From: Chloroflexi bacterium RBG_13_53_26
Lineage (GTDB): Bacteria; Chloroflexota; Dehalococcoidia; UBA2247; RBG-13-53-26
Direction of reading: 5' to 3'
Assembly: GCA_001795035.1 (NCBI GenBank)
Contig: MGMW01000112.1
Coordinates: forward strand, 1 to 34,406
DNA: 34,406 bases
Under the pieces are notes generated by a model, which saw nothing but the letters and a program-made list of their open reading frames with translations, made no database searches and was not told where the DNA came from. Below are positions 9,935-28,714 of this stretch, one piece after another. Numbering within the stretch: the first letter of the stretch is position 1; every line of letters begins with the position of its first letter. The translations under genes and the position numbers were made by a program.

Positions 9935-11983
9935 CTATATCTTTCGCCCGATCAGAGCAGCTTCTTCAATGGCCTCACAGGCAGTCCTTGCCTTAACGCA
10001 ATCCCCGACCTGATACACCTCAGTCACCATGCCCTGAAGTGCCTCGAACAGAATGCTCTCGGATTTCGACCCCATCGCAATAACCACGGCATCTGCCTCG
10101 GACAGTTCCTCTTTGCCTTCGCGTTCATACACTACACCCGCCCCTGTGATGCGGCGGGCAGTCGCCTTGGTAATGACCTTCACGTTGTGCAAGCGAAGGG
10201 CGAATCTCACTGAGGCTCTGGTGGTAGGACCCATGTCCTGACCGATGCGATCCAGCATCTCCAGTATGGTAACCTCGGGGCCTTTGCGTGTCATCTGGAC
10301 AGCAGTCTCGGCGTCTAAAGCTCCACCCAAGGCCAGGAATACTGCAGATTCTGCCGACATGGGACCCTGCTTGGCAATGAACAACGCTGTCTCCATGCCC
10401 ACTGCCCCACCCCCGATCACCACCACTCGCTTCCCCAACGCCACCCTTTGCTCCAGGACATCCCAGGCCCAGACCACGTTGCCGCCGTCAATCCCTGGAA
10501 TATTGGGGTGTAGAGGAGTAGCACCGGTAGCCACCACCACCACGTCAGGCGCTCGCTTCTTCACAGTATCCACATCAATCTCTTTGCCCAACTCCACCTT
10601 GACTCCGACTCTGTACAGTTCCTTGGAGAGATAGTTGACGGCGCTGGCAAACTCACCTCGCCCGGGCGGCACAGCAGCCAGGTTTAACTGACCGCCGAGC
10701 TTGTGCGACTTCTCGAACAGAGTCACCTTGTGTCCCCTTTGCGCCAGCGTGCGAGCAGCCTCCATGCCGGCTGGCCCACCACCAATGACGAACACCTTCT
10801 TGGGTTTGTCAGCATGGATCAGCGCATACTCTCTTTCTCTTCCAGCGGCCGGGTTGAAGGTGCAGGTGATTTCTTTCATCGCGAAGACAGCATCAAGGCA
10901 GCGCTGGTTGCACGCAGTACACTGTCGGATCTCATCATAGCGTCCTTCGGCTGCCTTCTTGGGCCATTCAGGATCAGTCAAGAAGGGTCGGCCCATCCCT
11001 ACCATGTCGGCCTGGTTGTTTATCAGTATCTGCTCGGCTAGGAAGGGATTGTTGATACGGTTGCAGGCGATCACCGGTACTTTGACTACTTGTTTGATTC
11101 CCTCAGCCAGGTAAACATAAGCACCCCGGGGAACGTCCATTGAGGCTAAGGGGAGAAAGGATTGATGCCATCCGGCGGTTACATTGACCAGATCGATGCC
11201 AGCTTTCTCCAAGGCTTTCGCGATGGTCTTCATTTCCTCCTGCCGATTGCCTCCCTTCATGAACTCATCACCGGAGGCGCGATAGGAGATAGGGAAACCG
11301 GGGCCGACTCTGGCCCTTATCTCTTTGACTACTTCCAGGGGGAACCTCATCCGCCTCTCGAAATCTCCGCCATACTCGTCGCTGCGCGTGTTGGTCAGCG
11401 GCGAGAGGAACTGATTCATCAAGTAGCCGCCATTGCCCACAAGCTCTACCCCATCGAAGCCGCCCTCTTTGGCTCTCCAGGCTCCTTCACCGAAATGCTG
11501 AATAAGCAGCTTGACCTCTGCCGTTGTCATTTCGCGGGGCATTACGCGAGTGAGTGTGTTGCGGATTGCCGAGGGCGCTGCCGGCGGGCCACCGTCTGCA
11601 GTGGAAAAGCATGATGATCCCATGTTCATCATTTGCCCAAAGACCATGGCACCGTGCTCATGCATCGCTTCGGTCAGCCTCTTTAGCCCGGGGAGAAACC
11701 TGTCATCATCCAGGGCTGGGATATTTGGCAGGTATACACAAAAATCGTTGTATCCGCAGACAACATAGATCAGCCCTGCCCCGCCCTTTGCTCTCTCGAT
11801 GTAGAAATCGACCATGCCGTCGGTGACTTGGCCATCCTTGGTAGCTCGTCCCAGTCCCATCGGAGACATGGCAATCCGGTTCTTGACCTGCACGTCGGCG
11901 ATTTTGATGGGCTCAAAAAGCTTCCTGAGTATTCTCATTGTCCATCCTTTCATATTCCCTTCGACAGTCAGCACCGTAGCCAA
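9935..11983 (-). CDS. OYE-family NADH:flavin oxidoreductase / 2,4-dienoyl-CoA reductase-like fusion
   Basis: TIM-barrel FMN domain (PIKIADVQVKNRIAMSPMG), Fe-S CTACNQRCLDAVFAMKEITCTFNP, FAD Rossmann VFVIGGGPAGMEAARTLAQRGH, NAD-binding VVVIGGGAVGMETA. Likely start MRILRKLFEP. Confidence 0.92.
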   Translation of the reverse strand: MATVLTVEGNMKGWTMRILRKLFEPIKIADVQVKNRIAMSPMGLGRATKDGQVTDGMVDFYIERAKGGAGLIYVVCGYNDFCVYLPNIPALDDDRFLPGLKRLTEAMHEHGAMVFGQMMNMGSSCFSTADGGPPAAPSAIRNTLTRVMPREMTTAEVKLLIQHFGEGAWRAKEGGFDGVELVGNGGYLMNQFLSPLTNTRSDEYGGDFERRMRFPLEVVKEIRARVGPGFPISYRASGDEFMKGGNRQEEMKTIAKALEKAGIDLVNVTAGWHQSFLPLASMDVPRGAYVYLAEGIKQVVKVPVIACNRINNPFLAEQILINNQADMVGMGRPFLTDPEWPKKAAEGRYDEIRQCTACNQRCLDAVFAMKEITCTFNPAAGREREYALIHADKPKKVFVIGGGPAGMEAARTLAQRGHKVTLFEKSHKLGGQLNLAAVPPGRGEFASAVNYLSKELYRVGVKVELGKEIDVDTVKKRAPDVVVVATGATPLHPNIPGIDGGNVVWAWDVLEQRVALGKRVVVIGGGAVGMETALFIAKQGPMSAESAVFLALGGALDAETAVQMTRKGPEVTILEMLDRIGQDMGPTTRASVRFALRLHNVKVITKATARRITGAGVVYEREGKEELSEADAVVIAMGSKSESILFEALQGMVTEVYQVGDCVKARTACEAIEEAALIGRKI

Positions 11984-12348: not shown

Positions 12349-13845
12349 ATGATGAATCCCGTTCGGGAATATCGAAAATGTGAGATTGCGGACAAACGTC
12401 AACTTGAGGATATCGTTGGGGCAGACAACGTTATCGACGATCCAACCGTACTGGAAGAGCATACTCACGACATGAGCTTCACTGCTGGTCGTCCGCCCGT
12501 TCTTGTTGTGAGGCCCAAGCAGGCGCAACAGGTTCAGGAAATCGTCAAGTGGGCCAACCGAACGTTGATGCCTCTGATACCTGTTAGCTCTGGCCCCCCT
12601 CATTTCAAGGGTGACACCGTTCCTGCATTGGGTGGATTAATAATAGACCTCTCGGGAATGAAGAATATCTTGCGCATCGATCGCAGGAACCGCGTGGCAA
12701 TGATCGAGCCCGGCGTTACATTCGGGGCTCTTAGACCTGAGATTGAAAAGCACCATATGCGATTGATGCTCCCACTGGCACCTAGAGTCACCAAATCGAT
12801 AGTTGGCAGTTATCTGGAGCGTGAACCGATCTTGGTGCCGAAATACCACTGGGACATGTCTGACCCCCTTTGCTGCACAGAGGTGATCTTCGGTACAGGC
12901 GACATGTTCAGGACAGGCGCCGCCGCCGGTCCGGGCACACTGGAGGAACAGTGGGAATCGGGCCAAGCCCAGAAGAACCCACTGGGCCCCGGGCCGAGCG
13001 ATCTGTTCAGAGTGGTGCAGGGTGCGCAGGGCACGCTGGGGATAGTTACATGGGCCACAATCCGACTGGAGCTCTTGCCATCCGTCCAGAAACTGTTCAT
13101 GGTGGGCTGCGAGAGAGTGGATGAAATCATAGACTTTGTGTACCGGCTGCAGCGGCTCAAATTGGGCGACGAGTGCCTGATCCTTGACCGTCTCAATCTG
13201 GCCTCGATTCTTGAGCAGGACGCTCAGTCCATGGAAGAACTCCGATCGGCACTGCCACCGTATATCCTGATCCTGGTCATCGCAGGTTACGATAGATTTC
13301 CCGAGGAACGGGTAGACTACCAGACAAAGGACATAGTGGAGATCGCTGAGAGATACGGTGTCCACCCTGTAACGGCACTGCCTGGAGTGGATTCCAGAAA
13401 GCTTCTTCAGGCCCTGAGTGAGCCTAGTGCCGAACCATATTGGAAGCTGCGTTACAAAGGCAACAGCGCCGACATATTCTTCCTGACGACCCTGGACCGA
13501 TGCCCACAATTCGTAGAGACCATGGGCAGGGTTGCCGGCGAAACAGATTTCCCAACAACCAGCATTGGCACATATATCCAGCCGATACAACAGGGCCGTT
13601 CCTGTCATGTGGAGTTTGACCTGGCGTTCGATCCGAACAATGTGATGGAAGCAGCCCGGACAAAGAGAACCTTTGAGCAAGCAAGCAGGGTCCTGATGCA
13701 AGAAGGGGCTTTCTTCTCCAGACCTTATGGAATGTGGTCGGCAATGATAAGTAGCCAATATGCAGAGAATGTGATTGCGCTGAGAAAGGTGAAGAGGATT
13801 TTCGACCCTAACAACGTGATGAACCCAGGGAAGCTCTACTTCTAA
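12349..13845 (+). CDS. FAD-linked oxidase (PCMH/GlcD-type), paralog 1
   Basis: PPVLVVRPKQAQQVQEIVKWANR…GGLIIDLSGMKNILRIDRRNRVAMIEPGVTFGAL…VVQGAQGTLGIVTWATIRLELLP…FDPNNVMNPGKLYF; SD GAGGAGG before ATG. Confidence 0.9.
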   Translation: MMNPVREYRKCEIADKRQLEDIVGADNVIDDPTVLEEHTHDMSFTAGRPPVLVVRPKQAQQVQEIVKWANRTLMPLIPVSSGPPHFKGDTVPALGGLIIDLSGMKNILRIDRRNRVAMIEPGVTFGALRPEIEKHHMRLMLPLAPRVTKSIVGSYLEREPILVPKYHWDMSDPLCCTEVIFGTGDMFRTGAAAGPGTLEEQWESGQAQKNPLGPGPSDLFRVVQGAQGTLGIVTWATIRLELLPSVQKLFMVGCERVDEIIDFVYRLQRLKLGDECLILDRLNLASILEQDAQSMEELRSALPPYILILVIAGYDRFPEERVDYQTKDIVEIAERYGVHPVTALPGVDSRKLLQALSEPSAEPYWKLRYKGNSADIFFLTTLDRCPQFVETMGRVAGETDFPTTSIGTYIQPIQQGRSCHVEFDLAFDPNNVMEAARTKRTFEQASRVLMQEGAFFSRPYGMWSAMISSQYAENVIALRKVKRIFDPNNVMNPGKLYF

Positions 13846-13858
13846 TGGACTTGAAAGT

Positions 13859-14644
13859 ATGCAGGTCGTCGTCTGCATAAAACAGATACTCGATCCGGAG
13901 ATGCCCCGTTCTGCCTTCAAGATTGACTCGGAGAAGAAACGGGTGGTTCCGCCACAAGGCATCCCGCCGGTAATTTCACCGTTCGACGAAAATGCGCTTG
14001 AGGCAGCATTGCGCATAAAGGATGAGCACAAAGCCAAGGTAATTGCGCTGAGCATGGGGAATAGACTGTCCCGTCCACTGCTCACGAAGGCTTTGGCCGC
14101 GGGCGCGGACGAACTGATCTTACTTGAAGATACAGTCTTCGAATACCTGGATAGCTTCGCAAGCGCAAGTGTTCTGGCGGCCGCGATCAGAAAAATCGGT
14201 GTTGCCGACATCGTATTCACCGGGCGCCAAGCTGCTGACTGGGACTCGGGTATCACCGGTTGTGCTATCGCGGAAGAGTTAGGGCTACCCTGCGTCACCA
14301 TAGCCAGAAAGGTCGAGGTAAACAGGGGGCAAATGAGGATAGAGCGAGTGATCGCAGATGGCTTTGAGATCGTTCAGGCACCCCTTCCATGCGTCATTAC
14401 CGTTGATAGCGACTTAGGGGGATTACGTCACGTCACTCTGCAGGACCTATCGTCTGCACGGAAGAAGCCACTGCAGGTATGGAAGGCAGGAGACTTGAAC
14501 ATGTCCCCACCCCCACCACGGTGCGAGCTTCTCGACTTGTACGTCCCTAAGCGCGAAACAGTCTGCGAAGTGATTAACGGGAAGACTCCTGAAGAGGCGG
14601 CAGCAAGACTCGCCGATAGACTACGAGAGGAAGGCTTCCTGTGA
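13859..14644 (+). CDS. Electron transfer flavoprotein beta subunit / FixA family
   Basis: MQVVVCIKQILDPE…PVISPFDENALEAALRIKDEHKAKVIALSMG…FTGRQAADWDSGITGCAIAEELGLPCVT. Confidence 0.92.
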   Translation: MQVVVCIKQILDPEMPRSAFKIDSEKKRVVPPQGIPPVISPFDENALEAALRIKDEHKAKVIALSMGNRLSRPLLTKALAAGADELILLEDTVFEYLDSFASASVLAAAIRKIGVADIVFTGRQAADWDSGITGCAIAEELGLPCVTIARKVEVNRGQMRIERVIADGFEIVQAPLPCVITVDSDLGGLRHVTLQDLSSARKKPLQVWKAGDLNMSPPPPRCELLDLYVPKRETVCEVINGKTPEEAAARLADRLREEGFL

Positions 14645-14667
14645 CTAAAGGGTGAGGGAGAGAGACG

Positions 14668-15954
14668 ATGATACTTGAGCTCAAGGACTACGTAGGTGAC
14701 ATGAAAAGATGTGCCAGGTGCTCGTTGTGCAAATGGCCACCTCTGGCCCAAATGAAGAGCTGGAGATTCTCGAATAACTGCCCCAGCATTGCCAGGTACA
14801 ATTTTCACTCGTACTCTGGCGGCGGCAGGATGGCCCTGGGACTAGCCCTGGCCGAAGGGCGGCTGGATGAGATAACGGATGAACTGTTGAACATTGTCTA
14901 CCGATGTACAGCCTGCGGTGCCTGCGATTCATCCTGCAAGTACAATGCCGAACTGGAAGTTCTATGGCCCATCTACTCCACCCGCGCACACCTTGTAGGC
15001 ATGGGATACTTGCTACCCGAGCACTCGATGATCATTGAGAGTCTCAGGAAAGAAGACAACACCATGATGCAGCCCAAAGCCGATCGCGGCAAATGGGCCG
15101 AAGGTCTTGACGTCAAAGATCTCTCCAAAGGCGAGAAAGCAGAGGTTGTATATCATGCCGGATGTCTCTACTGCTACGACCCGGAGCTGTCAGCCATAGC
15201 CAGAGATACGGTCACGCTGCTCAAAGAGGCCGGAGTTGATGTGGGTATCAGGGGCAGCCAGGAGACATGCTGCGGTAGTATCGCCTTCCAACTGGGCTTT
15301 CAGGGTGAGTTCATTAAGTTCGCCGAGAGCAATATCGATGACTGGAATGCAGCCGGCGTGACAGAAGTCATCACTTCATGTGCCTGCGGATTCGGCATCA
15401 TGAAGTCCGTGTATCCGCTTCTGGGCAAGGAAATGAAGTTCAAGGTGCTGCATATAACCCAGTATCTTGACGAACTGATCAAGCAGGGCAAGTTGAAGCT
15501 TTCCAGAAGTTTGTCCATGCGGGTCACCTATCACGACCCATGCAACCTGGGTCGGAAATCCGAGACATACGTGCCGTGGAAAGGCGAAGAAAAGAAGGTG
15601 CTCGGCCAATTCATCCTGAGGGAACCAGAGAAGATTGTACACCGGGGCTGGAACGGCATTTATGAGCCTCCCCGCAATATCATAAGGAGTGTGCCCGGTA
15701 TCCATCTGGTGGAGATGGAGAGGATCATGGAGTACTCCTGGTGCTGCGGGGCTGGTTCTGGTGTGAAGCAGACGATGAACGATCTCGCGCTCTGGACCGC
15801 ATCCGAACGCATAGAGGAAGCGAAGTCTGTAGGCAGCGAAGCAATCATAACTGCTTGCCCATGGTGTGAGCGCAATTTCAAGGATGCGATCACGGAGGCT
15901 GGAGACAATCTAATGGTCTATGACATTGTAGAACTGGTTAGACAAGCTCTATAA
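14668..15954 (+). CDS. (Fe-S)-binding protein, HdrD/GlcF-like with CCG domains
   Basis: CARCSLCKW…CP, CTACGACDSSCKYN, CLYC…ETCCGS…SCACGFG, HDPCNLGR…WCCGAGSG…ACPWCERN; SD before ATG. Confidence 0.92.
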   Translation: MILELKDYVGDMKRCARCSLCKWPPLAQMKSWRFSNNCPSIARYNFHSYSGGGRMALGLALAEGRLDEITDELLNIVYRCTACGACDSSCKYNAELEVLWPIYSTRAHLVGMGYLLPEHSMIIESLRKEDNTMMQPKADRGKWAEGLDVKDLSKGEKAEVVYHAGCLYCYDPELSAIARDTVTLLKEAGVDVGIRGSQETCCGSIAFQLGFQGEFIKFAESNIDDWNAAGVTEVITSCACGFGIMKSVYPLLGKEMKFKVLHITQYLDELIKQGKLKLSRSLSMRVTYHDPCNLGRKSETYVPWKGEEKKVLGQFILREPEKIVHRGWNGIYEPPRNIIRSVPGIHLVEMERIMEYSWCCGAGSGVKQTMNDLALWTASERIEEAKSVGSEAIITACPWCERNFKDAITEAGDNLMVYDIVELVRQAL

Positions 15955-15983
15955 CCACTCTTTTGAGAGTGAAGGAGGCAATA

Positions 15984-17546
15984 ATGGCCCTTCGCGGAGA
16001 TATTTACAGATTGTTTGAAAGTGTTGTCGGCCCTGAGAACATATCAGACGATCCGGCGGTGCTCAGATCATACATGTATCAGCCGTTTGGAGCCAAGGAG
16101 GGCGTGTGGGCCGATATCTCGCCTGCGGCCGTTATCATGCCCTCGAGCACTGAGGAGGTCGTTGCCATAGCCAAAATCTGCAATAGATACGGCATTGTGT
16201 TCAAGGCCATGAGCACCGGGTGGGGCATGCACAACCTGCCGGGAGTTGAGGGTGCAGTGTCTCTTGACCTGCGCCGCATGAATCGCATCCTCGAGATAGA
16301 CGAAAAAAACATGTACGCTGTTGTCGAGCCACACGTGATCTGTATGCAACTCCAGGTAGAGGCAATGAAAAAGGGCCTGAACTGCCACATTATCGGCGCA
16401 GGATCCAATACATCGGTGCTGGCCAGTGCGACTTCAGTGGTTGGCTACGGACCGGATGGACTGAGTATGGGGTTCAGCGGGCGCAATCTTCTTGGGGTAG
16501 AATGGGTACTTCCTACCGGCGATGTTCTCAAGCTAGGATCCCTAGGTGCAGACTCGGGCTGGTTCTGCGGCGATGGTCCAGGCCCCAGCCTGCGAGGCAT
16601 AATGAGGGGTTGGGAAGGAGCTTGGGGAGGCCTCGGCGTTTTCACCAAAGGTGCTGTTAAGCTGTTCCACTGGAACGGGCCGACTGAACTAGAGATGAAG
16701 CGAACACCTCCAAATTACGTACTCAAGGAGCCTCTCAGGTTTTTCAAAGTTTCGCTGTTCAGTTTCTCCACTATCGAGAAACTCGCAGAGGCAGCCCTGA
16801 AGTTAGGGGAGGCAGAGATCGGATACTTCATTTCGCGGCTAAGCCCGTCCTTTGTTGGCCTGCAGTTGGCTTCTGGTGCGAATTACGTTGCCACATGGAA
16901 TACGGGCATGCTTCAGCAAATGCTGAAGTATGCCTTCCTCTTTGTTATCTTCGCTAACTCTGAGAGGGAGTTTGAGTATCAGCAAAAATTGCTGGCGCAG
17001 ATTCTTGAAGAGACCGACGGTCAGACTTCGCCAATATCTGAGACCAAGGAGATGCAGGAGCAGACTTCAACAGCCGTAATCAAAGTGGATGCAGTTGTAC
17101 GCTCATGCTTCCGAACTACAGGGGGGTTCAATACATCTTTCGGCTCTATGGATACTGTGGACTTGGCCATGAATCAGATCAAGGCAGGTACGGAACTTAA
17201 AGACAAGTACATCAATAAGGGCGTCATCATGGACGACGGAGGAGACAATTCCGCCACATTAGCGTTTGACCAGGGACATCTTGCCTATACTGAAATGTTG
17301 ATTATGTACGATCACCACGACCGTGATTCTGCAGAAGGTGCCTGTCAGTATCTGGCTGAGTCAAATCAGGCGTGTTTGGACAAGAAGCTCGGACCACCAA
17401 TATTCCAGATCTCGCAGATCGGCAAGGGGAAGCACGGGGCTTTCGGGCCCGCATGTTTCAATTATGATAGCTGGCTGCGCAAAATCAAAGGAGAATTTGA
17501 CCCGAACAATACGTCCGATCCTACTGCCTACGCATCGCCGGAATGA
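15984..17546 (+). CDS. FAD-linked oxidase (PCMH/GlcD-type), paralog 2
   Basis: AVIMPSSTEEVVAIAKICNRYGIVFKAMSTGWGMHNLPGVEGAVSLDLRRMNRILEIDEKNMYAVVEPHV…KGEFDPNNTSDP; SD GAAGGAGG before ATG 15984. Confidence 0.9.
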   Translation: MALRGDIYRLFESVVGPENISDDPAVLRSYMYQPFGAKEGVWADISPAAVIMPSSTEEVVAIAKICNRYGIVFKAMSTGWGMHNLPGVEGAVSLDLRRMNRILEIDEKNMYAVVEPHVICMQLQVEAMKKGLNCHIIGAGSNTSVLASATSVVGYGPDGLSMGFSGRNLLGVEWVLPTGDVLKLGSLGADSGWFCGDGPGPSLRGIMRGWEGAWGGLGVFTKGAVKLFHWNGPTELEMKRTPPNYVLKEPLRFFKVSLFSFSTIEKLAEAALKLGEAEIGYFISRLSPSFVGLQLASGANYVATWNTGMLQQMLKYAFLFVIFANSEREFEYQQKLLAQILEETDGQTSPISETKEMQEQTSTAVIKVDAVVRSCFRTTGGFNTSFGSMDTVDLAMNQIKAGTELKDKYINKGVIMDDGGDNSATLAFDQGHLAYTEMLIMYDHHDRDSAEGACQYLAESNQACLDKKLGPPIFQISQIGKGKHGAFGPACFNYDSWLRKIKGEFDPNNTSDPTAYASPE

Positions 17547-17618
17547 TGATATTAACTACCTCACCCGGCATTCGACCGCAATCCGTGAATAGTCTCAGTA
17601 TTCGAAGGAGGTGGCTAG

Positions 17619-19010
17619 ATGAATAGTTATGATCTGATTGTAGTTGGCGGCGGCCCTGGAGGTAGCGCCGCAGCCAAGGAGGCCGCTGACAGCGGACTCA
17701 AGGTAATCGTCTTCGAGCGGGGGAGGTTCTGCGGCGAGAAAAATTCATCAGGCTTCGGATTGTCGCCCAAGGCTGCTCGGGATTTTGACTACATCAGGGA
17801 ACTCGATGTGCCCTCACTGTGGCCCACCAAGTTCGGCATGATGCACATCGTCGAACCCCAACCATCAAATGCAGATCGGATGACCTGGGGGCTGACACCG
17901 CCAAGGCGTAGCAGCTACCCACAGGCCAGCGAGTACATGGTGCAGATGATGTACCGGGCTGAGTTCGACCAGTGGATGATGGAGAAGGCCACCTCAGCAG
18001 GAGCAGAGTTAAAGCTTACTACCCTGATCACCAACGTTCTTCGGGATGGCGAACAAGTGGTAGGTGTGATAGACAACGAAGGCAACCAATATCAGGCACC
18101 GGTGGTGATTGCAGCAGATGGTGCTCACTCCTTGGTAGCCCAAAAGGCGGGGCTGAGAAACAAATGGGACAAGGATCAGGTTACCGTGCTGGCTACTGTC
18201 GATTTCGAAGCAGATTCAGAGCGGATTGCCGAATACTGCGGTGACACAAACGTCCACATTTTCATGGGGCCAGACCGAGGAGGGTATGTGTGCGTTTTCC
18301 GAAACGGATTCCACGTAGGTTCCCGACCCGCCAAGACCCTGTTGAGTGAAATAGACGCGGGCCGTAACTTGTCCACCACATCTATCACCGACAACACACG
18401 ACTGGATTTTGTCCAGCGCCTGATCAAGGCTACTAGAGCTGAGCCTCGAGAGTTCCAGCTTCACTTTCTGCCCTGGCTAAAAAGATTCAACGAGAGAATC
18501 TATACCGGGGGACTCATGCTCACCGGTGACGCTGCGGGAGTCCCTGAGCCGTTTATGGCAGAAGGAGTGTGGCAGGCGATGTATTCGTCGAGGCTGGCGG
18601 CTCAAGTTGCTCTGCGAGCGCACAAAGACAAAGACTTTTCTAAAGCATATCTGAGCCAATATATGGAGGAACTCAAAATGTCGCCCGTGGGAGTTGATTT
18701 CATGGCCGGCACGGAGTTAAGGGACTTCTTTTCCGAGTGGACCTCACAGACATTCTACGATCTGTTCGATAACCTGGCGGATGCCATGTTCTATGGAATG
18801 CTCACCATGGCCGAACCTCATGCTCAGGGAATGTTGCGCGTGCCCGCAATACTCGTGGATATGATCCCACAACTGCTTTTCCTGACGCGCTACTACTTCC
18901 CCATAGCAGAGGAAGCCTCGAGGGAAAAGATTACCAACTTCCTAGCAGGGATGAAGATGATGGCCCCTATACTTAAGAGCATGATGCCACCGGCAGCAGG
19001 AGGAAAGTAA
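17619..19010 (+). CDS. FixC / ETF-quinone oxidoreductase-like flavoprotein
   Basis: DLIVVGGGPGGSAAAKEAADSGLKVIVFERGRFCGEKNSSG, GLMLTGDAAGVPEPFMAEGVWQAMYSSRLAAQ; SD AAGGAGGT. Confidence 0.92.
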   Translation: MNSYDLIVVGGGPGGSAAAKEAADSGLKVIVFERGRFCGEKNSSGFGLSPKAARDFDYIRELDVPSLWPTKFGMMHIVEPQPSNADRMTWGLTPPRRSSYPQASEYMVQMMYRAEFDQWMMEKATSAGAELKLTTLITNVLRDGEQVVGVIDNEGNQYQAPVVIAADGAHSLVAQKAGLRNKWDKDQVTVLATVDFEADSERIAEYCGDTNVHIFMGPDRGGYVCVFRNGFHVGSRPAKTLLSEIDAGRNLSTTSITDNTRLDFVQRLIKATRAEPREFQLHFLPWLKRFNERIYTGGLMLTGDAAGVPEPFMAEGVWQAMYSSRLAAQVALRAHKDKDFSKAYLSQYMEELKMSPVGVDFMAGTELRDFFSEWTSQTFYDLFDNLADAMFYGMLTMAEPHAQGMLRVPAILVDMIPQLLFLTRYYFPIAEEASREKITNFLAGMKMMAPILKSMMPPAAGGK

Positions 19011-19012
19011 CC

Positions 19013-19291
19013 ATGGAGAAACATCCAATACAGAAAAGAGAGTTGGTAACAGTGATTGAATCACCTGTCGACTTTATCAGGGTCGATCAAGAGAAGTGCG
19101 TCGGCTGCAAGAACTGTGTGATAATCTGTGGCATGGATTTGTGGAGAATGAGTAACGGCAAAGCTTTGTTGGCCTCCGACTACAAGAGGTTCTGTACCGA
19201 GTGCGCTTCCTGCTATACCGTTTGCGACTACAATGCAATCGAGTTCACCTTCCCACCGCCAGGGTATGGCATTGTGTACGAGAAAGGCTGA
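19013..19291 (+). CDS. FixX-like 2[4Fe-4S] ferredoxin
   Basis: CVGCKNCVIICGMDLW and CTECASCYTVCDYNAIEF (each CxxCxxCxxxC), directly after the FixC-like gene. Confidence 0.88.
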   Translation: MEKHPIQKRELVTVIESPVDFIRVDQEKCVGCKNCVIICGMDLWRMSNGKALLASDYKRFCTECASCYTVCDYNAIEFTFPPPGYGIVYEKG

Positions 19292-20792: not shown

Positions 20793-22649
20793 TTATCTCA
20801 GCACCCGTTCGTCGCCAACACGTCGGGTGATCTTCTGCTCATCAAGGTGTTCCATCAGAGCCAGGGCGTACTTGCGGCTGGTTTGAAAGAGATCGCGCAC
20901 TTCCGCCACCGTTATCTTGCCGTGTGATTTGACGTGGGCGATAACACGTTCCACCATTTCATCATAGGCCGAGGCGGCAAAGATGACATTTTCGGCTACC
21001 TTCACTACCTTCCGTTGCTCGATCAGCAGTTCGAGCAGTTCCTGATCCATGGTTGTCTCGCTGGGCGGGGAATAGGGGTTTTGGGTCAAAGGCCTGAGGA
21101 AAGCATCTACGGCAGCCTGCTGCCCTTTTTTCAGCTCTATCCGATGAGAAGGCAGATAAACGAGTTTGCCAGCCTCCGCCAGCGCACCGTCCCGCACAAG
21201 TTGCTGCACTGCCGCAGGGAATGAGCCAGGGGGGATCGTCAGCTTGCTCTTCAGCTCCTCTTTGGGCATACCTGAACGGAGAGGGAACTGCTGATGGTAA
21301 CGCCCCACTGCTCGCGTTACTTTGTCTGTCAGACGCCGCCAACCCGTAGACGAAAAGAGCAGCGCATGAGACCCTTTGTCGCCAAGCATCACCAGCTTAC
21401 TTTCAAAAAGCAGGGATTCTATAGCCTGCTCTACTTCGGATTGAGATAGGCTGGAACGGGTCAGTAGCTCACCCATCGCCAGAGGCTCTTGGGCCTCCAG
21501 GGTTGCCAGTAGTATATCATTAGGCCCGCCCTTCTCCCTCGCAGCCAGTCCCTGAATGGTGCTCGCCTGAAAGCGGCGGTGGCGTCTTGGATAGGCATCC
21601 ACAATCTCGCCGCCACCCAGAGTGTCCTTAGAGGAGCGAATGACGAAGAGGTCACCCTTGACCACAGCCACCGGACGAGAGAGGGCTATCTGTGCCCAAC
21701 TCCTATCCCCGGGTTCAAGCTTTTCTTTTTCCAGCAATCGCACCTTTCCGATTGCCTCAAGGGCATTGCTGTGGAAAGTGATCTCGGCGTTATGTCTCAG
21801 AGGGTGAGTCACCCTGGGAAGTAGCTCTATCTTGACATCCACTACTTTTGTAGGGCGCAACCAGTCAGGGGTGGTCAACACATCGCCACGCTCCAGTTGA
21901 GCCGTGGACAGGCCTGACAGGTTAGCTGCCACTCTGCTTCCGGGGGAAGCGGTTTCCACCTTCCTTTTGTGGGTCTGGAGCCCGCGCAGGCGTGCCTTGA
22001 AGCGAGACGGGAGTATTTCTACCTCCTGTCCCACCATGAGGTTTCCGTCCACAAGCGTCCCTGTCACTACAGTGCCGAAGCCGGCGATGGTGAATACCCG
22101 GTCAATGGGAAGCCTCGGTCTGCCGACGTCCCTTTTGGGTTGGGTGGCGTCCAGAAGACGATCAATGGTAGCCACAAGTTCAGGCAGACCTTCTCCGGTT
22201 ACCGCAGACACGCCGATGATGGGGGCTGGAGCCAGAGCAGTGCCAGCTATGACCTCTTTGACCTCCATGGTGACCAACTCCAGTAGTTCCTGATCTACCA
22301 GGTCCTTCTTGGTGATAACGACAATCCCCTTTTCCAGACGAAGCAGGTCGAGGATGGCCAGATGCTCCCTCGTCTGCGGCATCACACCCTCATCGGCAGC
22401 GATGACCAGCAGGGCCAGATCGATACCCCCCACCCCAGCCAGCATATTCTTGATGAACCTCTCATGCCCTGGAACATCGACGATGCTGACTTCCCGACCA
22501 CTGGGCAACTTCAGCCAGGCAAAGCCGAGGTCGATAGTCATGCCCCGCTCTTTCTCTTCGGTCAGGCGGTCGGGGTCGATACCGGTTAGCGCCTCAACCA
22601 GGCGGGATTTGCCATGGTCTACGTGGCCAGCCGTGCCAAGAACAAACAT
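20793..22649 (-). CDS. selB: Selenocysteine-specific elongation factor
   Basis: [68 protein letters not shown]-terminal winged-helix region. Confidence 0.96.
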
Positions 22650-22652
22650 ACC

Positions 22653-23705
22653 CTACCCCTCTATGATGATCATTTCCTTGGGTTGCCCTACTACCTCTCC
22701 AACAATTCTAGCCTCAACCACGCCAGCTTTGTGCAATCTGGAAAGCAATAGGTCTGCTTTGGCAGCGCTGACCGCGATGAACAAACCACCGGAAGTTTGT
22801 GGATCGAAGAGGACGTCTTGCACATATTCTGGGACTTCAGTTGCCTTCTTCACCATGCTGGAACGGAACTCCTTGTTACGGTATGTGCCTCCAGGGATCA
22901 TTCCCATCTGGGCAAACTCTATGGCCTCAGCAAACACGGGGACAGAAGCAGCGCGAATCTTCATACCGATCTCACTGTCCTGGATCATTTCACAGGCATG
23001 TCCCAGAAGGCCAAAACCTGTGATATCGGTACAGGCATTGACTCCGATTTCCTGCATCGCTTCGGAGGCTACCTTGTTGAGAGTGGCCATATGGCCGGCG
23101 ACTTTGGTCACGGTTTCTTCACCTGCCACCCTCCCTTTGATAGCGGTGTTGATGATGCCTGTGCCCAACGGTTTCGTCAGTATCAGCTTGTCTCCTGCCT
23201 TGGCTCCTGTCTTGGTGATCACTTTGCTTGGGTGCATGACACCAGTGACAGAGAGCCCGTATTTCAACTCCGTATCATCAACACTGTGCCCACCGACTAG
23301 CACCACACCAGCCTCCCTCATTTTCTCCAGCCCGCCCCTCAGAATTTCCCTCAATACCGATATGTCCAGAGTCTTGATGGGGAAGCAGACTACATTCATG
23401 GCGGTGAGGGGTTTGCCTCCCATGGCATAAACGTCGCTAAGGGCATTGGCCACCGCGATCTGCCCAAAGGTATAGGGATCATCGACAATGGGCGTGAAGA
23501 AGTCAATGGTCTGTATGATAGCCAGATCTTCGCTCAGCTTATACACACCAGCGTCGTCAGCCTTCTCCAGCCCCACGATGAGATTGGGGTCATGGATCAA
23601 GGGCAAGCCACACAATGCCCTGTCCAGGTCCCCTGGACCCAGCTTGGAAGCTCAACCTGCGCCGCGAACAGTCTCGGTGAGCCTGGGGTGCCCTTTGTCG
23701 TTCAT
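22653..23705 (-). CDS. selD: Selenide, water dikinase, Sec-containing (UGA at codon 18)
   Basis: The supplied ORF (to 23615) lacks the N-terminus. Same frame from ATG 23705: [58 protein letters not shown] = TGA at 23652-23654, at the SelD active-site Cys/Sec position; SD GAAGGAG upstream. Confidence 0.93.
23622..23638 (-). promoter_or_regulatory. Bacterial SECIS-like hairpin downstream of the selD UGA
   Basis: Minus strand GTCCAGG-GGA-CCTGGAC: perfect 7-bp stem, 3-nt loop rich in G, loop starting 21 nt after the UGA. Confidence 0.75.
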
Positions 23706-23743
23706 TTACTTCTCCTTCGACCGATTCTCACCCATATGAGGTG

Positions 23744-23971
23744 CTAGATCGGGTGAATCCCCTGAATCTCTATCTGCTTCTTCTCCAGAATAGCCTTGAC
23801 GCTCGGCTCATCTGGCCGGTCAAAGCGGAGGCAAATGCCACAGTCCGAGCTGAGTTGACGGGGTACGGGTATGAGCTTGATGGCCACGCCCGTTTTCTTG
23901 AACAGCTTCTCAGCCTGCAGGGCATTGCTCGTTGAGTAAAAGAGGACTACGCTATACTCTGCGGTTTCCAT
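23744..23971 (-). CDS. DUF3343 protein (putative Se/S carrier-like)
   Basis: YSVVLFYSTSNALQAEKLFKKTGVAIKLIPVPRQLSSDCGICLRF. Confidence 0.88.
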   Translation of the reverse strand: METAEYSVVLFYSTSNALQAEKLFKKTGVAIKLIPVPRQLSSDCGICLRFDRPDEPSVKAILEKKQIEIQGIHPI

Positions 23972-23986
23972 TCAACCATTCTATCA

Positions 23987-24568
23987 TCAAAGAGAAATGA
24001 TCTTGTCAGCGTCAAGCAATGCTGCGGTAATATCATACATGTTGGAAACGCGTCCTACCTCCACCGCCTCCTTCAGGTTATAGTACCCCAAGCAGGTACC
24101 ACACGCCAGTATCTCAACCCCCTGCTTCTCCAAAGCCCGAAGGTCACCTATCACCTCGGAGTCCCTGGCCACCAGTTTGACACCGCTGTTCATGAAGATG
24201 ATTCTGCTGGGCCTGGTTTCCGCCTCAGTCAGAGTATGCATGAAGCTGCGCATCAGCGTATTCCCCAGAATATCATCTCCCCGCCCTATGGTGTTGGATG
24301 AGATGAGGAGCACATCCGACTTAGTGGCAGGAGTGACTGAGGACTTCTCCAACCCGCTCACTTTCCTGGTCAGGTGTAGGTAAGTTGCTTCACCCTTCTT
24401 CTCCACAGATACCTGGAATCCCCGGCTGTCTGCCAGACGGGAAACATTCTGTTTAGCCGTCTCGTTATCTACGATCACAAACACTTCATCAGCTTTTTCC
24501 AACGCCTTTTTGGTCAAGACCACAGGTTGAGGACAGGCCAGACCACGCGCATCCACGTTTTCAGACAT
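23987..24568 (-). CDS. yedF: Selenium metabolism protein YedF (TusA/SirA-like + DsrE-like)
   Basis: VDARGLACPQPVVLTKKALE; FMNSGVKL…LACGTCLGYYNLKEAVEVGRVSNMYDITAALL. Likely start MSENVDARG at 24568. Confidence 0.9.
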   Translation of the reverse strand: MSENVDARGLACPQPVVLTKKALEKADEVFVIVDNETAKQNVSRLADSRGFQVSVEKKGEATYLHLTRKVSGLEKSSVTPATKSDVLLISSNTIGRGDDILGNTLMRSFMHTLTEAETRPSRIIFMNSGVKLVARDSEVIGDLRALEKQGVEILACGTCLGYYNLKEAVEVGRVSNMYDITAALLDADKIISL

Positions 24569-24569
24569 T

Positions 24570-25727
24570 CTAAAACCTCGCTTTGGTGGCAATGATTCTT
24601 CGCACTGCCTCCAAGGTTCCCTCTATATCATCGTCTGAAGTGAAGTAGCCGGGACTCAGCCTTATAGTCCCCTGAGGGAACGTTCCTAGCGTCTTGTGTG
24701 CTATGGGCGAGCAGTGCAATCCCGGGCGACACATAATCTGATGGTACTCCTCTAGTTGCATGGCCACTTCTGAAGGAATGAGCCCGGAGATATTGAAAGA
24801 GACGACCGCTACCCGTTTTCTGGGATCACTGTCTCCGTAAATGGTGACACCCGGGATAGCCTTCAATCCATCGATGATTGATCTTGTCAGCACCTGTTCC
24901 CTTTTCTGTATTTCATTTACACCCTGCTCCAGAACGAAGCGCACTCCAGCACCCAGGCCAGCCAGACCCACCGTGTTGGGTGTTCCACTCTCATACTTGT
25001 CAGGCAGAAAATCGGGCTGGTACTCATGTTCGGAGCGGCTACCCGTGCCTCCATATTTGAGAGGTTCGATGCTGGATTCAATACCTTTGCGAATGTACAG
25101 GCCGCCTGTTCCCTGCGGCCCGTAGAGTCCCTTGTGCCCAGAGAAGGCCAGCAGATCGATATGCATCTCCTCTACATCGACGGGATAGCATCCCATGGTC
25201 TGAGCCGCATCAATCATCAGAAGCACTCCGCGACGGCGGGTAATCTGGCCCACTTCGGCTACGGGCAGAAGGGTGCCCACGACATTGGAGGCATGATTGA
25301 GAATGACGAGCCTGGTATGCGGACCAACAGCCTGCTCTACGTCATGGGGATTGAGGAACCCTTCGGAAGAGCATTTGACCACGGTTACTTCGACACCCAG
25401 TTTCTCCATATGACGCAGTGGTCGCATCACCGAGTTGTGCTCCATGCTGCTGGTGATCACATGGTCACCAGGATGCAGGAGTCCTCGTATCACCACATTC
25501 AAGGCTTCGGTGGCATTCGAGGTAAAGACGATACGCATCGGATCACCGATGCCGAAGAGCATGGACAGGGACTCTCTGGTCTCATAGATAATGCGGCCTG
25601 CTTCAATGGAAAGCTGATGTGCGGAGCGGCCGGGGTTGGCCCCCGTATGGCGCATGAAATTATCCATCGCCTGATATACCGCTTCTGGTTTAGGCCAGGA
25701 AGTAGCCGCATTGTCCAGATAAATCAT
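24570..25727 (-). CDS. Cysteine desulfurase / selenocysteine lyase-like PLP aminotransferase (class V)
   Basis: MIYLDNAATSWPKPEAVYQAM…SSMEHNSVMRPL…LLAFSGHKGLYGPQGTGGLYIRKG…RPGLHCSPIAHKTLGT. Confidence 0.93.
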   Translation of the reverse strand: MIYLDNAATSWPKPEAVYQAMDNFMRHTGANPGRSAHQLSIEAGRIIYETRESLSMLFGIGDPMRIVFTSNATEALNVVIRGLLHPGDHVITSSMEHNSVMRPLRHMEKLGVEVTVVKCSSEGFLNPHDVEQAVGPHTRLVILNHASNVVGTLLPVAEVGQITRRRGVLLMIDAAQTMGCYPVDVEEMHIDLLAFSGHKGLYGPQGTGGLYIRKGIESSIEPLKYGGTGSRSEHEYQPDFLPDKYESGTPNTVGLAGLGAGVRFVLEQGVNEIQKREQVLTRSIIDGLKAIPGVTIYGDSDPRKRVAVVSFNISGLIPSEVAMQLEEYHQIMCRPGLHCSPIAHKTLGTFPQGTIRLSPGYFTSDDDIEGTLEAVRRIIATKARF

Positions 25728-25767
25728 CTCGCGCCCTATCCTATGCTCTTCGACATGAGATTATAGC

Positions 25768-25986
25768 CTACTTTGACGATGGGCTCAGCAGCAGGCGAAA
25801 TCCGTCTTCGATCCTCTCCACCTTGACGGAATAACCCCTGCTTCTGGCCAGGCGAGAGACATTCTCCCTGGAGACCTCGCTCTCCACAAGGACAGACAAC
25901 GGTGCGCTCGGGTTATTGTCAATCGCTTCTTTGGTCTTGACTACGGGTATAGGGCAGGAGAAACCTCTGGCATCTACCTCCATCAT
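25768..25986 (-). CDS. TusA/SirA-like sulfur/selenium carrier
   Basis: MMEVDARGFSCPIPVVKTKEAIDNN…RENVSRLARSRGYSVKVE. Confidence 0.88.
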   Translation of the reverse strand: MMEVDARGFSCPIPVVKTKEAIDNNPSAPLSVLVESEVSRENVSRLARSRGYSVKVERIEDGFRLLLSPSSK

Positions 25987-27062
25987 CAGGATTGCCTCCT
26001 TTCCTTCATGAGGAAACCAATGACCAGGGCAATGGCCAGTCCGATGCCCACTGCCCAGGCACCAAACGTAGCTACTCCCTTGGTGCTGGCAGCCAGGCCG
26101 AAGTTATGAGCCACAGCCGCGCCAGCTATCATACCGAGGACCGTCATGACGGCATCAGTGTCTCCCTCACCAGAGAGGATCATCTGGCGCAGGGGACAGC
26201 CACCGAGGAGAGTAGCTGCCAGCCCTACCAGTGACATGCTGAAGAAGTTCCACAGGTGATTGTTATGAGCTATTGGCTGATCACTGAAACCCCAGTGACC
26301 CATTTGGCCGAGGATGAGGTTGGTAACCAGTGCCCCGACGAAGAAGGCCGCTATGATGCTAAAAAGGTGAATGTCCTTAATCAGCATCAGATCTCGCCAG
26401 CCCCCCACGAAGCACATCCTGGTCCGCTGAGCTAGAAAGCCGACGCCCAGTCCAATGACCAGAGCTACCCACAGCGCAGCGTGGAGCGCCCCGGGGCCCG
26501 TGGTGCTGGAGAAGATGAAATATGGGGTGAAGATGGCAAACAGGAGAAGGACTATTGTGAATGCAGGGAAAAGCCATCCCGGTAGGGCTGGCAGCTTGGT
26601 GGATCGACCGAGGTTGAAACCTCGCTTGAGGAAGAGGATCCCCAGGAAAGCACCAAAGATCAAGCCAACGAGAGCAGTGATCCCATTAAGATCGCCACCA
26701 GCCAATCGCAGCAAAGCTCTTACAGGGCAGCCTAGGAACACCAGGGCACCGATCATCATCAGGGCACCCAGCAAAAAACGAACTAGAGGCGCAGAGCCAC
26801 CTCTAGTTCGAAATTCCTTGAAGGCAAAAGCAGCGATGAAGCTGCCAAGCACTAGCCCCAGTATTTCAGGGCGGATGTACTGCACCACCTCCGCTCGGTG
26901 CAAGCCGAGCGCTCCGGTGATATCTCTCAGGAAGCAGGCGGCGCAGAAGCCCATGTTGGCTGGATTGCCCCACCTGACTAGTAACGAAGCGAGGACTCCG
27001 AAGACCAGTCCGGAGAAGATCAACAATATACGCGGATTGAGCGATTGAAAGAATCGCCGCAA
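25986..27062 (-). CDS. yedE: YedE-like putative selenium/sulfur transporter (YeeE/YedE family)
   Basis: Multi-TM; MGFCAACFLRDITGALG, FLGCPVRALLRLAGGD, RTRMCFVGGWRDLMLIKD, LLGGCPLRQMILSGEGDTDA. Confidence 0.92.
   Translation of the reverse strand: MRRFFQSLNPRILLIFSGLVFGVLASLLVRWGNPANMGFCAACFLRDITGALGLHRAEVVQYIRPEILGLVLGSFIAAFAFKEFRTRGGSAPLVRFLLGALMMIGALVFLGCPVRALLRLAGGDLNGITALVGLIFGAFLGILFLKRGFNLGRSTKLPALPGWLFPAFTIVLLLFAIFTPYFIFSSTTGPGALHAALWVALVIGLGVGFLAQRTRMCFVGGWRDLMLIKDIHLFSIIAAFFVGALVTNLILGQMGHWGFSDQPIAHNNHLWNFFSMSLVGLAATLLGGCPLRQMILSGEGDTDAVMTVLGMIAGAAVAHNFGLAASTKGVATFGAWAVGIGLAIALVIGFLMKERRQS
26773..26810 (-). terminator. Intrinsic-terminator-like hairpin inside the yedE coding sequence
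   Basis: Minus strand CGAACTAGAGG-TGGCTCTGCG-CCTCTAGTTCG-TTTTTT: perfect 11-bp stem, 10-nt loop, T6. Confidence 0.5.
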
Positions 27063-27322
27063 AACAGTTACCTCCTTTTCTAACTATTCTGGTAGAGACT
27101 TCTCTGACGAAGAGCCACGCCCTTCGGCCCAGATTGGTTCACGTTCGGCGATTCATCGATCTCACCCCCTCTCGGCCAGAATCTACGGGAAGAAATACTA
27201 TTGTTCCCGCTTCCTGAATTTGTACCATCTCGGGAATCAACTTGTCAAAACATGCTTTTCCTCGCCAGTTTGCCCCTTAATGAGGCCTGTGCTACATTTG
27301 TATGGCCAAGGAGAGGATCAGG

Positions 27323-28714
27323 ATGTCGAACGGTTTTCGCAGTCTCCCCAGCGTGGACAGGTTGTTGGCAGATGAGCGCCTCCAGCCGCTTGAGGCAATA
27401 TATTCTCGCCAATTCATTACCGATGAAGTGCGCCTGATCCTTGAAGAGAGTCGTTCATCGATTGTCAGAGGTCAACCCGCCCCCTCTTTTGATGAATTGT
27501 TGGCATCGGTTTGCGCCCGTGTTGAGTCGCTGGGCCAAATCACACTAAGGCCGGTGATCAACGCCACTGGCGTTGTTCTGCACACCAATCTGGGCCGTGC
27601 GCCCGTCAGCCAGGAAACCGCAACTGCTATGAAGGCGGTCTCACTGGGCTATGTGAATCTGGAATTCGATCTTGAAAGTGGGGCACGCGGGTCTCGCGAA
27701 GTCCACATATCCTCCCTGCTGTGTCGCCTTACGGGGGCCGAAGCAGCCCTGGTGGTGAATAACAACTCCTCTGCAGTTCTCCTCGCCTTGAGTGCCCTGG
27801 CGAAGAAGAAAGAGGTGATTGTGTCCCGAGGGCAAGCAGTAGAGATCGGCGGTGGTTTCCGCATCCCCGATGTGATGCGCCAGAGTGGGGCCAAGCTGGT
27901 GGAAGTGGGTACCACCAATTGTACCTACCCATCGGACTACGAGCAGGCGATTACCGCCAGAACAGCGGCACTGCTCCGTGTGCACTCAAGCAACTTCAAG
28001 ATAATCGGGTTCGCCCAAGAAGTATCTGTAAATGAAATCGCCGAACTGGGGGCAAGGCACAATCTGCCCGTGCTGGATGATTTGGGGAGCGGTTGTCTCC
28101 TGGATACCACCAGATTTGGATTGGGCCCGGAGCCTATGGTTCAGGACAGCATTGCTGCCGGCGTCGCCTTGGCCTTCTTCTCGGGTGATAAGCTCCTGGG
28201 TGGCCCACAAGCCGGCATCATTGTGGGCAAGAAGCACCTCATTGACAAACTCAGGAAACACCCCCTGGCTCGTGCAGCGCGCGTTGACAAAACGAGAATG
28301 GCCGGGCTGGCTGCTACCCTTCTCCATTATCTCAAGGGAGAGGCAGAGCAGAAGATACCAGTGTGGCAGATGATATCGATGCCTCTGGAGGAGATAGAGA
28401 AGCGGGCCAGGGAGTGGTCAGAGCACTTCAAAGGACTGGCCACCGTGACGGAAGGCGAATCTGTAGTGGGAGGGGGTAGCCTGCCGGGAAGCACTCTGCC
28501 TACCAGGCTTCTGGTCATCAAGGGATCAGCCAGGGCAAAAGAGCGGAATACGGTTCAAGCACTGGCGGCCCGGCTAAGGGCTCACCAGCCACCGGTTGTG
28601 GGACGGATAGAAGGTAATTCACTGCTTCTCGACCCCCGCACTGTGTTCCCTGATGAAGACCGTATAGTCCTTGAGGCACTTCGCCACGGCCTGGATTCCC
28701 TGGGAGTGGGCTGA
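27323..28714 (+). CDS. selA: L-seryl-tRNA(Sec) selenium transferase
   Basis: LRPVINATGVVLHTNLGRAPVS, VNNNSSAVLLAL, VLDDLGSGCLLDT, FFSGDKLLGGPQAGIIVG. SD-supported start at 27323; the supplied ORF begins at 27302. Confidence 0.95.
   Translation: MSNGFRSLPSVDRLLADERLQPLEAIYSRQFITDEVRLILEESRSSIVRGQPAPSFDELLASVCARVESLGQITLRPVINATGVVLHTNLGRAPVSQETATAMKAVSLGYVNLEFDLESGARGSREVHISSLLCRLTGAEAALVVNNNSSAVLLALSALAKKKEVIVSRGQAVEIGGGFRIPDVMRQSGAKLVEVGTTNCTYPSDYEQAITARTAALLRVHSSNFKIIGFAQEVSVNEIAELGARHNLPVLDDLGSGCLLDTTRFGLGPEPMVQDSIAAGVALAFFSGDKLLGGPQAGIIVGKKHLIDKLRKHPLARAARVDKTRMAGLAATLLHYLKGEAEQKIPVWQMISMPLEEIEKRAREWSEHFKGLATVTEGESVVGGGSLPGSTLPTRLLVIKGSARAKERNTVQALAARLRAHQPPVVGRIEGNSLLLDPRTVFPDEDRIVLEALRHGLDSLGVG

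Follow-up and report, generated by a model that had tools for sequence, protein, structure and literature searches.

A six-gene flavoprotein operon of a Chloroflexota bacterium encodes EtfB without EtfA and probably depends on an EtfA encoded elsewhere

The stretch of DNA analysed here (the window, 34,406 nucleotides of contig MGMW01000112.1 from Chloroflexi bacterium RBG_13_53_26, class Dehalococcoidia) carries a six-gene electron-transfer operon that encodes EtfB, the beta subunit of an electron transfer flavoprotein (ETF), without the alpha subunit EtfA. The other products are two FAD proteins of the VAO/PCMH family (GlcD1 and GlcD2), an HdrD-like iron-sulphur (Fe-S) protein, a FixC-like flavoprotein and a FixX-like ferredoxin. 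The explanation that we consider fairly probable is that a catabolic flavoenzyme passes electrons to an ETF completed by an EtfA encoded in trans, and further through FixX and FixC to quinone, and that this situation arose after the loss of etfA from the operon. The first-pass annotation, prepared from the sequence alone, had proposed either a distant EtfA or the direct docking of EtfB onto a PCMH-type subunit. The distant EtfA is favoured because the orphan EtfB retains the features that meet EtfA and lacks the bifurcating signatures that would suggest a redox flavin of its own; direct docking found no support. The proposal of a composite dehydrogenase, Fe-S and quinone-linked unit is plausible, and no new electron carrier has to be assumed since the alpha subunit would most likely be supplied by another EtfA-EtfB pair of the genome. 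The evidence comprises sequence comparisons and single-chain structure predictions, and the metagenome-assembled genomes (MAGs) used are incomplete; that of the window (1.6 Mb in 121 contigs) is 68.1% complete.

The EtfB-only operon and its relatives

All six open reading frames (ORFs) were re-derived and translated, and are intact and co-directional (Table 1). Together with the Pfam and NCBIfam matches they bear out the order and the 23-nt spacing after EtfB given in the first-pass annotation, and a search with the ETF_alpha profile bears out the absence of EtfA/FixB from the cluster and the window. The only ETF-domain match on this contig is the operon EtfB itself, and the genome-wide ETF_alpha search returned EtfA on two other contigs only, C12 and C118. 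The earlier ORF coordinates hold for all six genes apart from the probable start of the fourth: GlcD2 more plausibly begins at ATG 15984, which is preceded by AAGGAGG, than at TTG 15963. A misassembly or a chance arrangement is unlikely because G001 and G009, MAGs that belong to the window's family, contain the same six genes with the same short EtfB-HdrD junction, at 69-90% identity per protein and likewise with no EtfA in the operon.

Table 1. Genes of the operon and the site at which relatives carry etfA (window positions)
Feature	Position	Strand	Profile matches and remarks
GlcD1, VAO/PCMH-family FAD protein, 498 aa, probable dehydrogenase subunit	12349-13845	+	FAD_binding_4 and FAD-oxidase_C (Pfam)
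EtfB (ETF beta subunit), 261 aa, no EtfA in operon	13859-14644	+	Pfam ETF (PF01012), 117.5 bits
EtfB-HdrD gap, 23 nt, with Shine-Dalgarno sequence	14645-14667	+	site of etfA in relatives G191 and G494
HdrD/TfrB-like Fe-S protein, 428 aa, N-terminal 4Fe-4S dicluster domain	14668-15954	+	two CCG domains, Fer4_8 (Pfam)
GlcD2, second VAO/PCMH-family FAD protein	15984-17546 (ORF open from TTG 15963)	+	FAD_binding_4 (Pfam)
FixC/ETF-QO-like flavoprotein, geranylgeranyl-reductase superfamily, 463 aa	17619-19010	+	FAD_binding_3 (Pfam)
FixX/EtfX-like ferredoxin, 92 aa, two 4Fe-4S motifs	19013-19291	+	4Fe-4S dicluster models (Pfam)

The closest comparison is offered by seven-gene operons which contain the same genes in the same order, at 64-86% identity per protein to those of the window, with etfA inserted between EtfB and HdrD. 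Such an operon is found in G191, of the same class as the window, where EtfA overlaps both of its neighbours, and in G494 of the Desulfobacterota, where etfA directly precedes HdrD. A second member of the Desulfobacterota, G458, shows EtfA-HdrD-GlcD2-FixC-FixX running to the contig end. A third, G420, contains a five-gene core of GlcD1-HdrD-GlcD2-FixC-FixX with neither EtfB nor EtfA (L161, 4580-10925), and this core may use another carrier.

In remoter triads of the two flavoproteins and the Fe-S protein, which occur in archaea as well as in several bacterial phyla, genes for both EtfA and EtfB are often adjacent. Triads with EtfB and without EtfA occurred in Chloroflexota only, in at least nine genomes (those of the window, G001, G009, G137, G158, G394, G395 and the genomes of loci L046 and L053), and G404, of which a short flank was read, is a probable further case; the remaining triads have no adjoining ETF gene. 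Contig ends limit some of these synteny readings (L078, for example, stops after GlcD2). An in-operon etfA in most syntenic relatives would have spoken against the first-pass interpretation; it was found in G191, G494 and G458, but within the class most EtfB-bearing relatives resemble the window in lacking it. No description of such operons with EtfB alone turned up in the literature searched, which excluded most subscription papers.

In G191, G494 and G458 the EtfA proteins make up a single clade (support 100/99), and for this reason we regard it as most likely that the ancestral operon contained etfBA and that etfA was lost in the lineage of the window. In the tree of the five core proteins, the window groups with G001 and G009 (100/100), then with G191 (100/99) and then with the three Desulfobacterota (91/95), while G137 falls outside. 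In G137 and its relatives EtfB comes from another lineage and its gene precedes that of GlcD1, which makes more than one origin of the EtfB-only state probable. The Shine-Dalgarno regions preceding HdrD were also considered as an indicator of the direction of change, and were uninformative, being AGGAGG-like throughout.

The orphan EtfB and its probable partner

The window EtfB is a member of the ETF beta family, with an ETF domain along its full length and matches to EtfB chains in a phmmer comparison with 10 PDB sequences. Its top match is CarD (6fah_B, E 4.5e-42), and the PDB chains closest to it come from bifurcating ETFs. This similarity, together with the co-occurrence of FixA-, FixC- and FixX-like genes with a PCMH-type flavoprotein, would fit an NADH-driven bifurcating complex of the FixABCX/EtfABCX or Ldh-EtfAB type, with FixB encoded elsewhere. 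Such a complex is nevertheless very unlikely. Both the SPT anchor and the RxGV motif, which belong to the group 2, bifurcating small subunits (PMC10734219, PMC9232219), are absent from the window EtfB as read from alignments, and the SPT anchor is also missing from the EtfB encoded on C118, whereas it is present in that of C12.

Several observations argue that the orphan EtfB is maintained and that it probably continues to pair with a trans-encoded EtfA, since its motifs, recognition loop and C-terminal arm are kept and it is under purifying selection. It retains 73 of the 80 columns conserved among EtfA-paired relatives. At the conserved positions of the arm, retention in the orphan EtfB group (93 of 100) is no lower than in operon EtfBs that have an EtfA (71 of 89), and only three sites distinguish the orphan from the partnered EtfBs of close relatives. 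Purifying selection is indicated by dN/dS values of 0.14-0.16 in two pairs, which are rough because dS (about 1.2) is near saturation, the other pairs being saturated. A short loop preceding the arm was rejected as a mark of life without EtfA, as EtfA-adjoining EtfBs in other phyla share it.

These data bear on whether EtfB could be a relic which lost its role with etfA, the enzyme using another acceptor as the ETF-less G420 operon must. The G420 core shows that an operon of this type can occur without any ETF subunit, and the dN of the operon EtfB is about five times that of the C118 EtfB. We consider a relic very improbable, given that an uninterrupted reading frame is present in the window as well as in G001 and G009, that conserved positions are kept, and that the EtfA-partnered EtfB of G191 is equally divergent; nor do the dN/dS values, with the above reservation on saturation, support decay.

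Alternatively, EtfB might act without EtfA by docking onto GlcD1, carrying either a flavin of its own or just AMP. It would then serve as a fixed conduit for electrons, or else in the structure or assembly of the complex. This is an unlikely alternative, for which some observations speak: the at least nine EtfB-only genomes comprise two EtfB lineages, EtfB adjoins GlcD1 in most of these operons, and the EtfB and GlcD1 proteins both evolve faster than HdrD, GlcD2 and FixC. Against it stand the preservation of the arm and of other positions conserved in EtfA-paired EtfBs, with almost no orphan-specific change, and the occurrence of EtfA in nearly all genomes with EtfB-only operons (the window's own, G001, G009, G137, G158, G394 and the genomes of L046 and L053). 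Since it has none of the bifurcating-type motifs that go with a small-subunit flavin, EtfB alone would probably be without a redox cofactor. A non-bifurcating EtfB is expected to bind AMP and not a redox flavin, and without EtfA it would therefore probably be unable to carry electrons. The wider proposition, that Chloroflexota possess a recurrent class of EtfB that needs no EtfA and forms a fixed conduit for electrons, docked directly on a dehydrogenase of the PCMH type, appears improbable to us; if true, it would break the usual EtfA/EtfB pairing.

The pairing with an EtfA in trans would most likely involve the protein encoded on C118. The genome-wide survey of EtfA homologs and their neighbourhoods suggested in the first-pass annotation yielded two loci. 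On C12, EtfA adjoins the EtfB with the SPT anchor and an acyl-CoA dehydrogenase. On C118, EtfA adjoins an EtfB of the same subfamily as that of the operon, 50% identical to it and sharing the motif GRQAADWD, so that in sequence terms a matching EtfA does exist elsewhere in the genome. Pairs of the C118 type are widespread across the class. It could also be supposed that a third, operon-specific etfA resides in the unassembled part of the window's genome, given its 68% completeness. This is the least probable of the explanations considered, as G001 (93% complete) and G009 (95%), which have the same operon, show EtfA of exactly two types, that of C12 and that of C118.

Some observations weigh against a loss of etfA followed by pairing in trans. 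In the EtfB tree G191 joins G494 (96/92), contrary to the core tree, and a transfer of an etfBA cassette is thus possible instead of a simple loss. No EtfA was detected in G395 (genome 86% complete), though all 10 of the 10 searched members of its family have one; this genome also speaks for an EtfB acting without EtfA. In G158 (82% complete) the only EtfA is of the C12 type.

The G395 locus itself is a GlcD2-like/HdrD/EtfB cluster (L089, 1821-3843) and is the best candidate for a truly EtfA-less EtfB. In another genome (G011, contig C1; L028, 8949-11717), at a locus of the C118 kind, two EtfB genes stand in tandem upstream of one EtfA gene, which points to possible sharing of an EtfA.

Proposed electron path and known systems

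In the mechanism that we favour, GlcD1, the HdrD-like protein and GlcD2 would form a GlcDEF-like catabolic flavoenzyme oxidising a small organic substrate, probably a carboxylate or a related compound. Electrons would pass from the substrate to the flavins of GlcD1 and GlcD2 and the Fe-S protein, then to the ETF (EtfB with the trans-encoded EtfA), FixX, FixC and finally quinone. Genes for both ETF subunits would formerly have been present in the operon. The recognition loop of known ETFs sits on EtfB (PMC9232219), and for that reason EtfB may be the docking subunit that recognises the dehydrogenase while a shared EtfA supplies the FAD. If this is correct, ETFs in these bacteria are modular, one FAD-carrying EtfA serving several operon-specific EtfBs, each with its docking surface, and the gene neighbourhood alone is no guide to which EtfA pairs with which EtfB.

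The names used earlier apply to the individual proteins only in part. FAD_binding_4 is indeed common to both proteins called GlcD, and FAD-oxidase_C is present in GlcD1 only, but they score 72 and 61 bits with the GlcD equivalog model against a cut-off of 567.9. The closest solved relatives of both are VAO/PCMH-family enzymes. The AlphaFold model of GlcD1 (pLDDT 81.8) has the PCMH/D-2-hydroxyacid-dehydrogenase fold, with p-cresol methylhydroxylase as the best match (TM 0.79). GlcD2 is likewise predicted to adopt this type of fold with lower confidence (pLDDT 73.2), its top matches being D-lactate dehydrogenase and VAO/PCMH folds. The GlcF equivalog model gives 44 bits against a cut-off of 333. 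Among 16 sequences of the HdrD-like protein the cysteines of the second CCG motif are invariant and two cysteines in the first CCG region vary. FixC and FixX are names of resemblance only: the FixC-like protein reaches 82 bits with the FixC model, an E. coli-type model and hence a weak test (cut-off 610), and 135.8 bits with GG-red-SF, also under its cut-off. The FixX-like protein has two CxxCxxC-type 4Fe-4S motifs, both kept in eight relatives; EtfX likewise has two 4Fe-4S motifs (PMC10734219).

The operon shares parts with several known systems and differs from each of them. E. coli GlcDEF is likewise quinone-linked and has a CCG Fe-S subunit next to two FAD subunits of the PCMH type. In the window, by contrast, two different large flavoproteins stand in place of GlcD and the small GlcE; EtfB, FixC and FixX are added; and the GlcD and GlcF equivalog cut-offs are far from reached. 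In Ldh-EtfAB of A. woodii (LctBCD; PMC9232219, 7QH2) a PCMH-type flavoprotein is also encoded with EtfB, and LctD aligns with GlcD1 over its whole length (fold TM 0.69). LctBCD, in contrast, bifurcates, has an EtfA with a ferredoxin domain, carries the SPT anchor missing from the window EtfB, and contains no HdrD, second flavoprotein, FixC or FixX. FixABCX/EtfABCX, as in T. maritima (PMC10734219), likewise has a single operon with genes for EtfB, a FixC-like protein and a dicluster FixX-like protein, whereas the window has no FixB/EtfA and no bifurcating EtfB signatures and adds a dedicated three-subunit dehydrogenase. By the tests made, the operon encodes neither a complete FixABCX nor a bifurcating ETF.

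A further parallel concerns the 'Magic' proteins #24-26 of Ca. Anaerobenzenivorax ORM2 and the proteins BzS1_12970/80/90, a putative benzene-activating heterotrimer (PMC13101534, PMC13416013). Compared by the published descriptions, the order and domains are the same as in the window: a PCMH-type FAD protein with the FAD-oxidase C-terminus, a CCG Fe-S protein of similar size and a PCMH-type FAD protein without the C-terminal domain. The cysteine motifs of the Fe-S protein are incomplete in both (Protein #25, PMC13101534). The window, however, adds EtfB, FixC and FixX, and the genes that flank the benzene cluster, for an AMP-ligase, MaoC and a type III CoA-transferase, are missing from it. The authors assign other functions to distant syntenic homologues of the triad (PMC13416013). 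For both of these reasons we do not claim benzene activation for the window. The comparison nevertheless places a Chloroflexota operon beside triads that have been proposed to catalyse the first step of benzene degradation without oxygen. In some cases triads of this sort are accompanied by ETF and FixC/FixX-like genes, and this suggests a testable electron path for a poorly understood family.

Genes surrounding the operon

Clues to the substrate come from the neighbourhoods of relatives, and none of them is common to the window. Genes for the TRAP transporter subunits DctM/DctQ lie just downstream of the operon in two Desulfobacterota (L161, 845-2647, in G420; L163, 955-2757, in G494), and acyl-CoA-related genes are found near the operon of G191. 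These two sets of neighbours are what suggests a carboxylate.

In the window the nearest neighbours are genes for an Old-yellow-enzyme-like reductase and an amidohydrolase. The former (9935-11983, minus strand; Oxidored_FMN and Pyr_redox_2) resembles Old yellow enzyme/2,4-dienoyl-CoA reductase, is divergent from the operon and does not stand beside it in the relatives examined. Further downstream, on both strands of positions 20793-28714, selenocysteine machinery is encoded by neighbouring genes: a SelB-like translation factor (as read from its amino-acid sequence), an AIR-synthase-type protein that is likely SelD, a class V aminotransferase and SelA.

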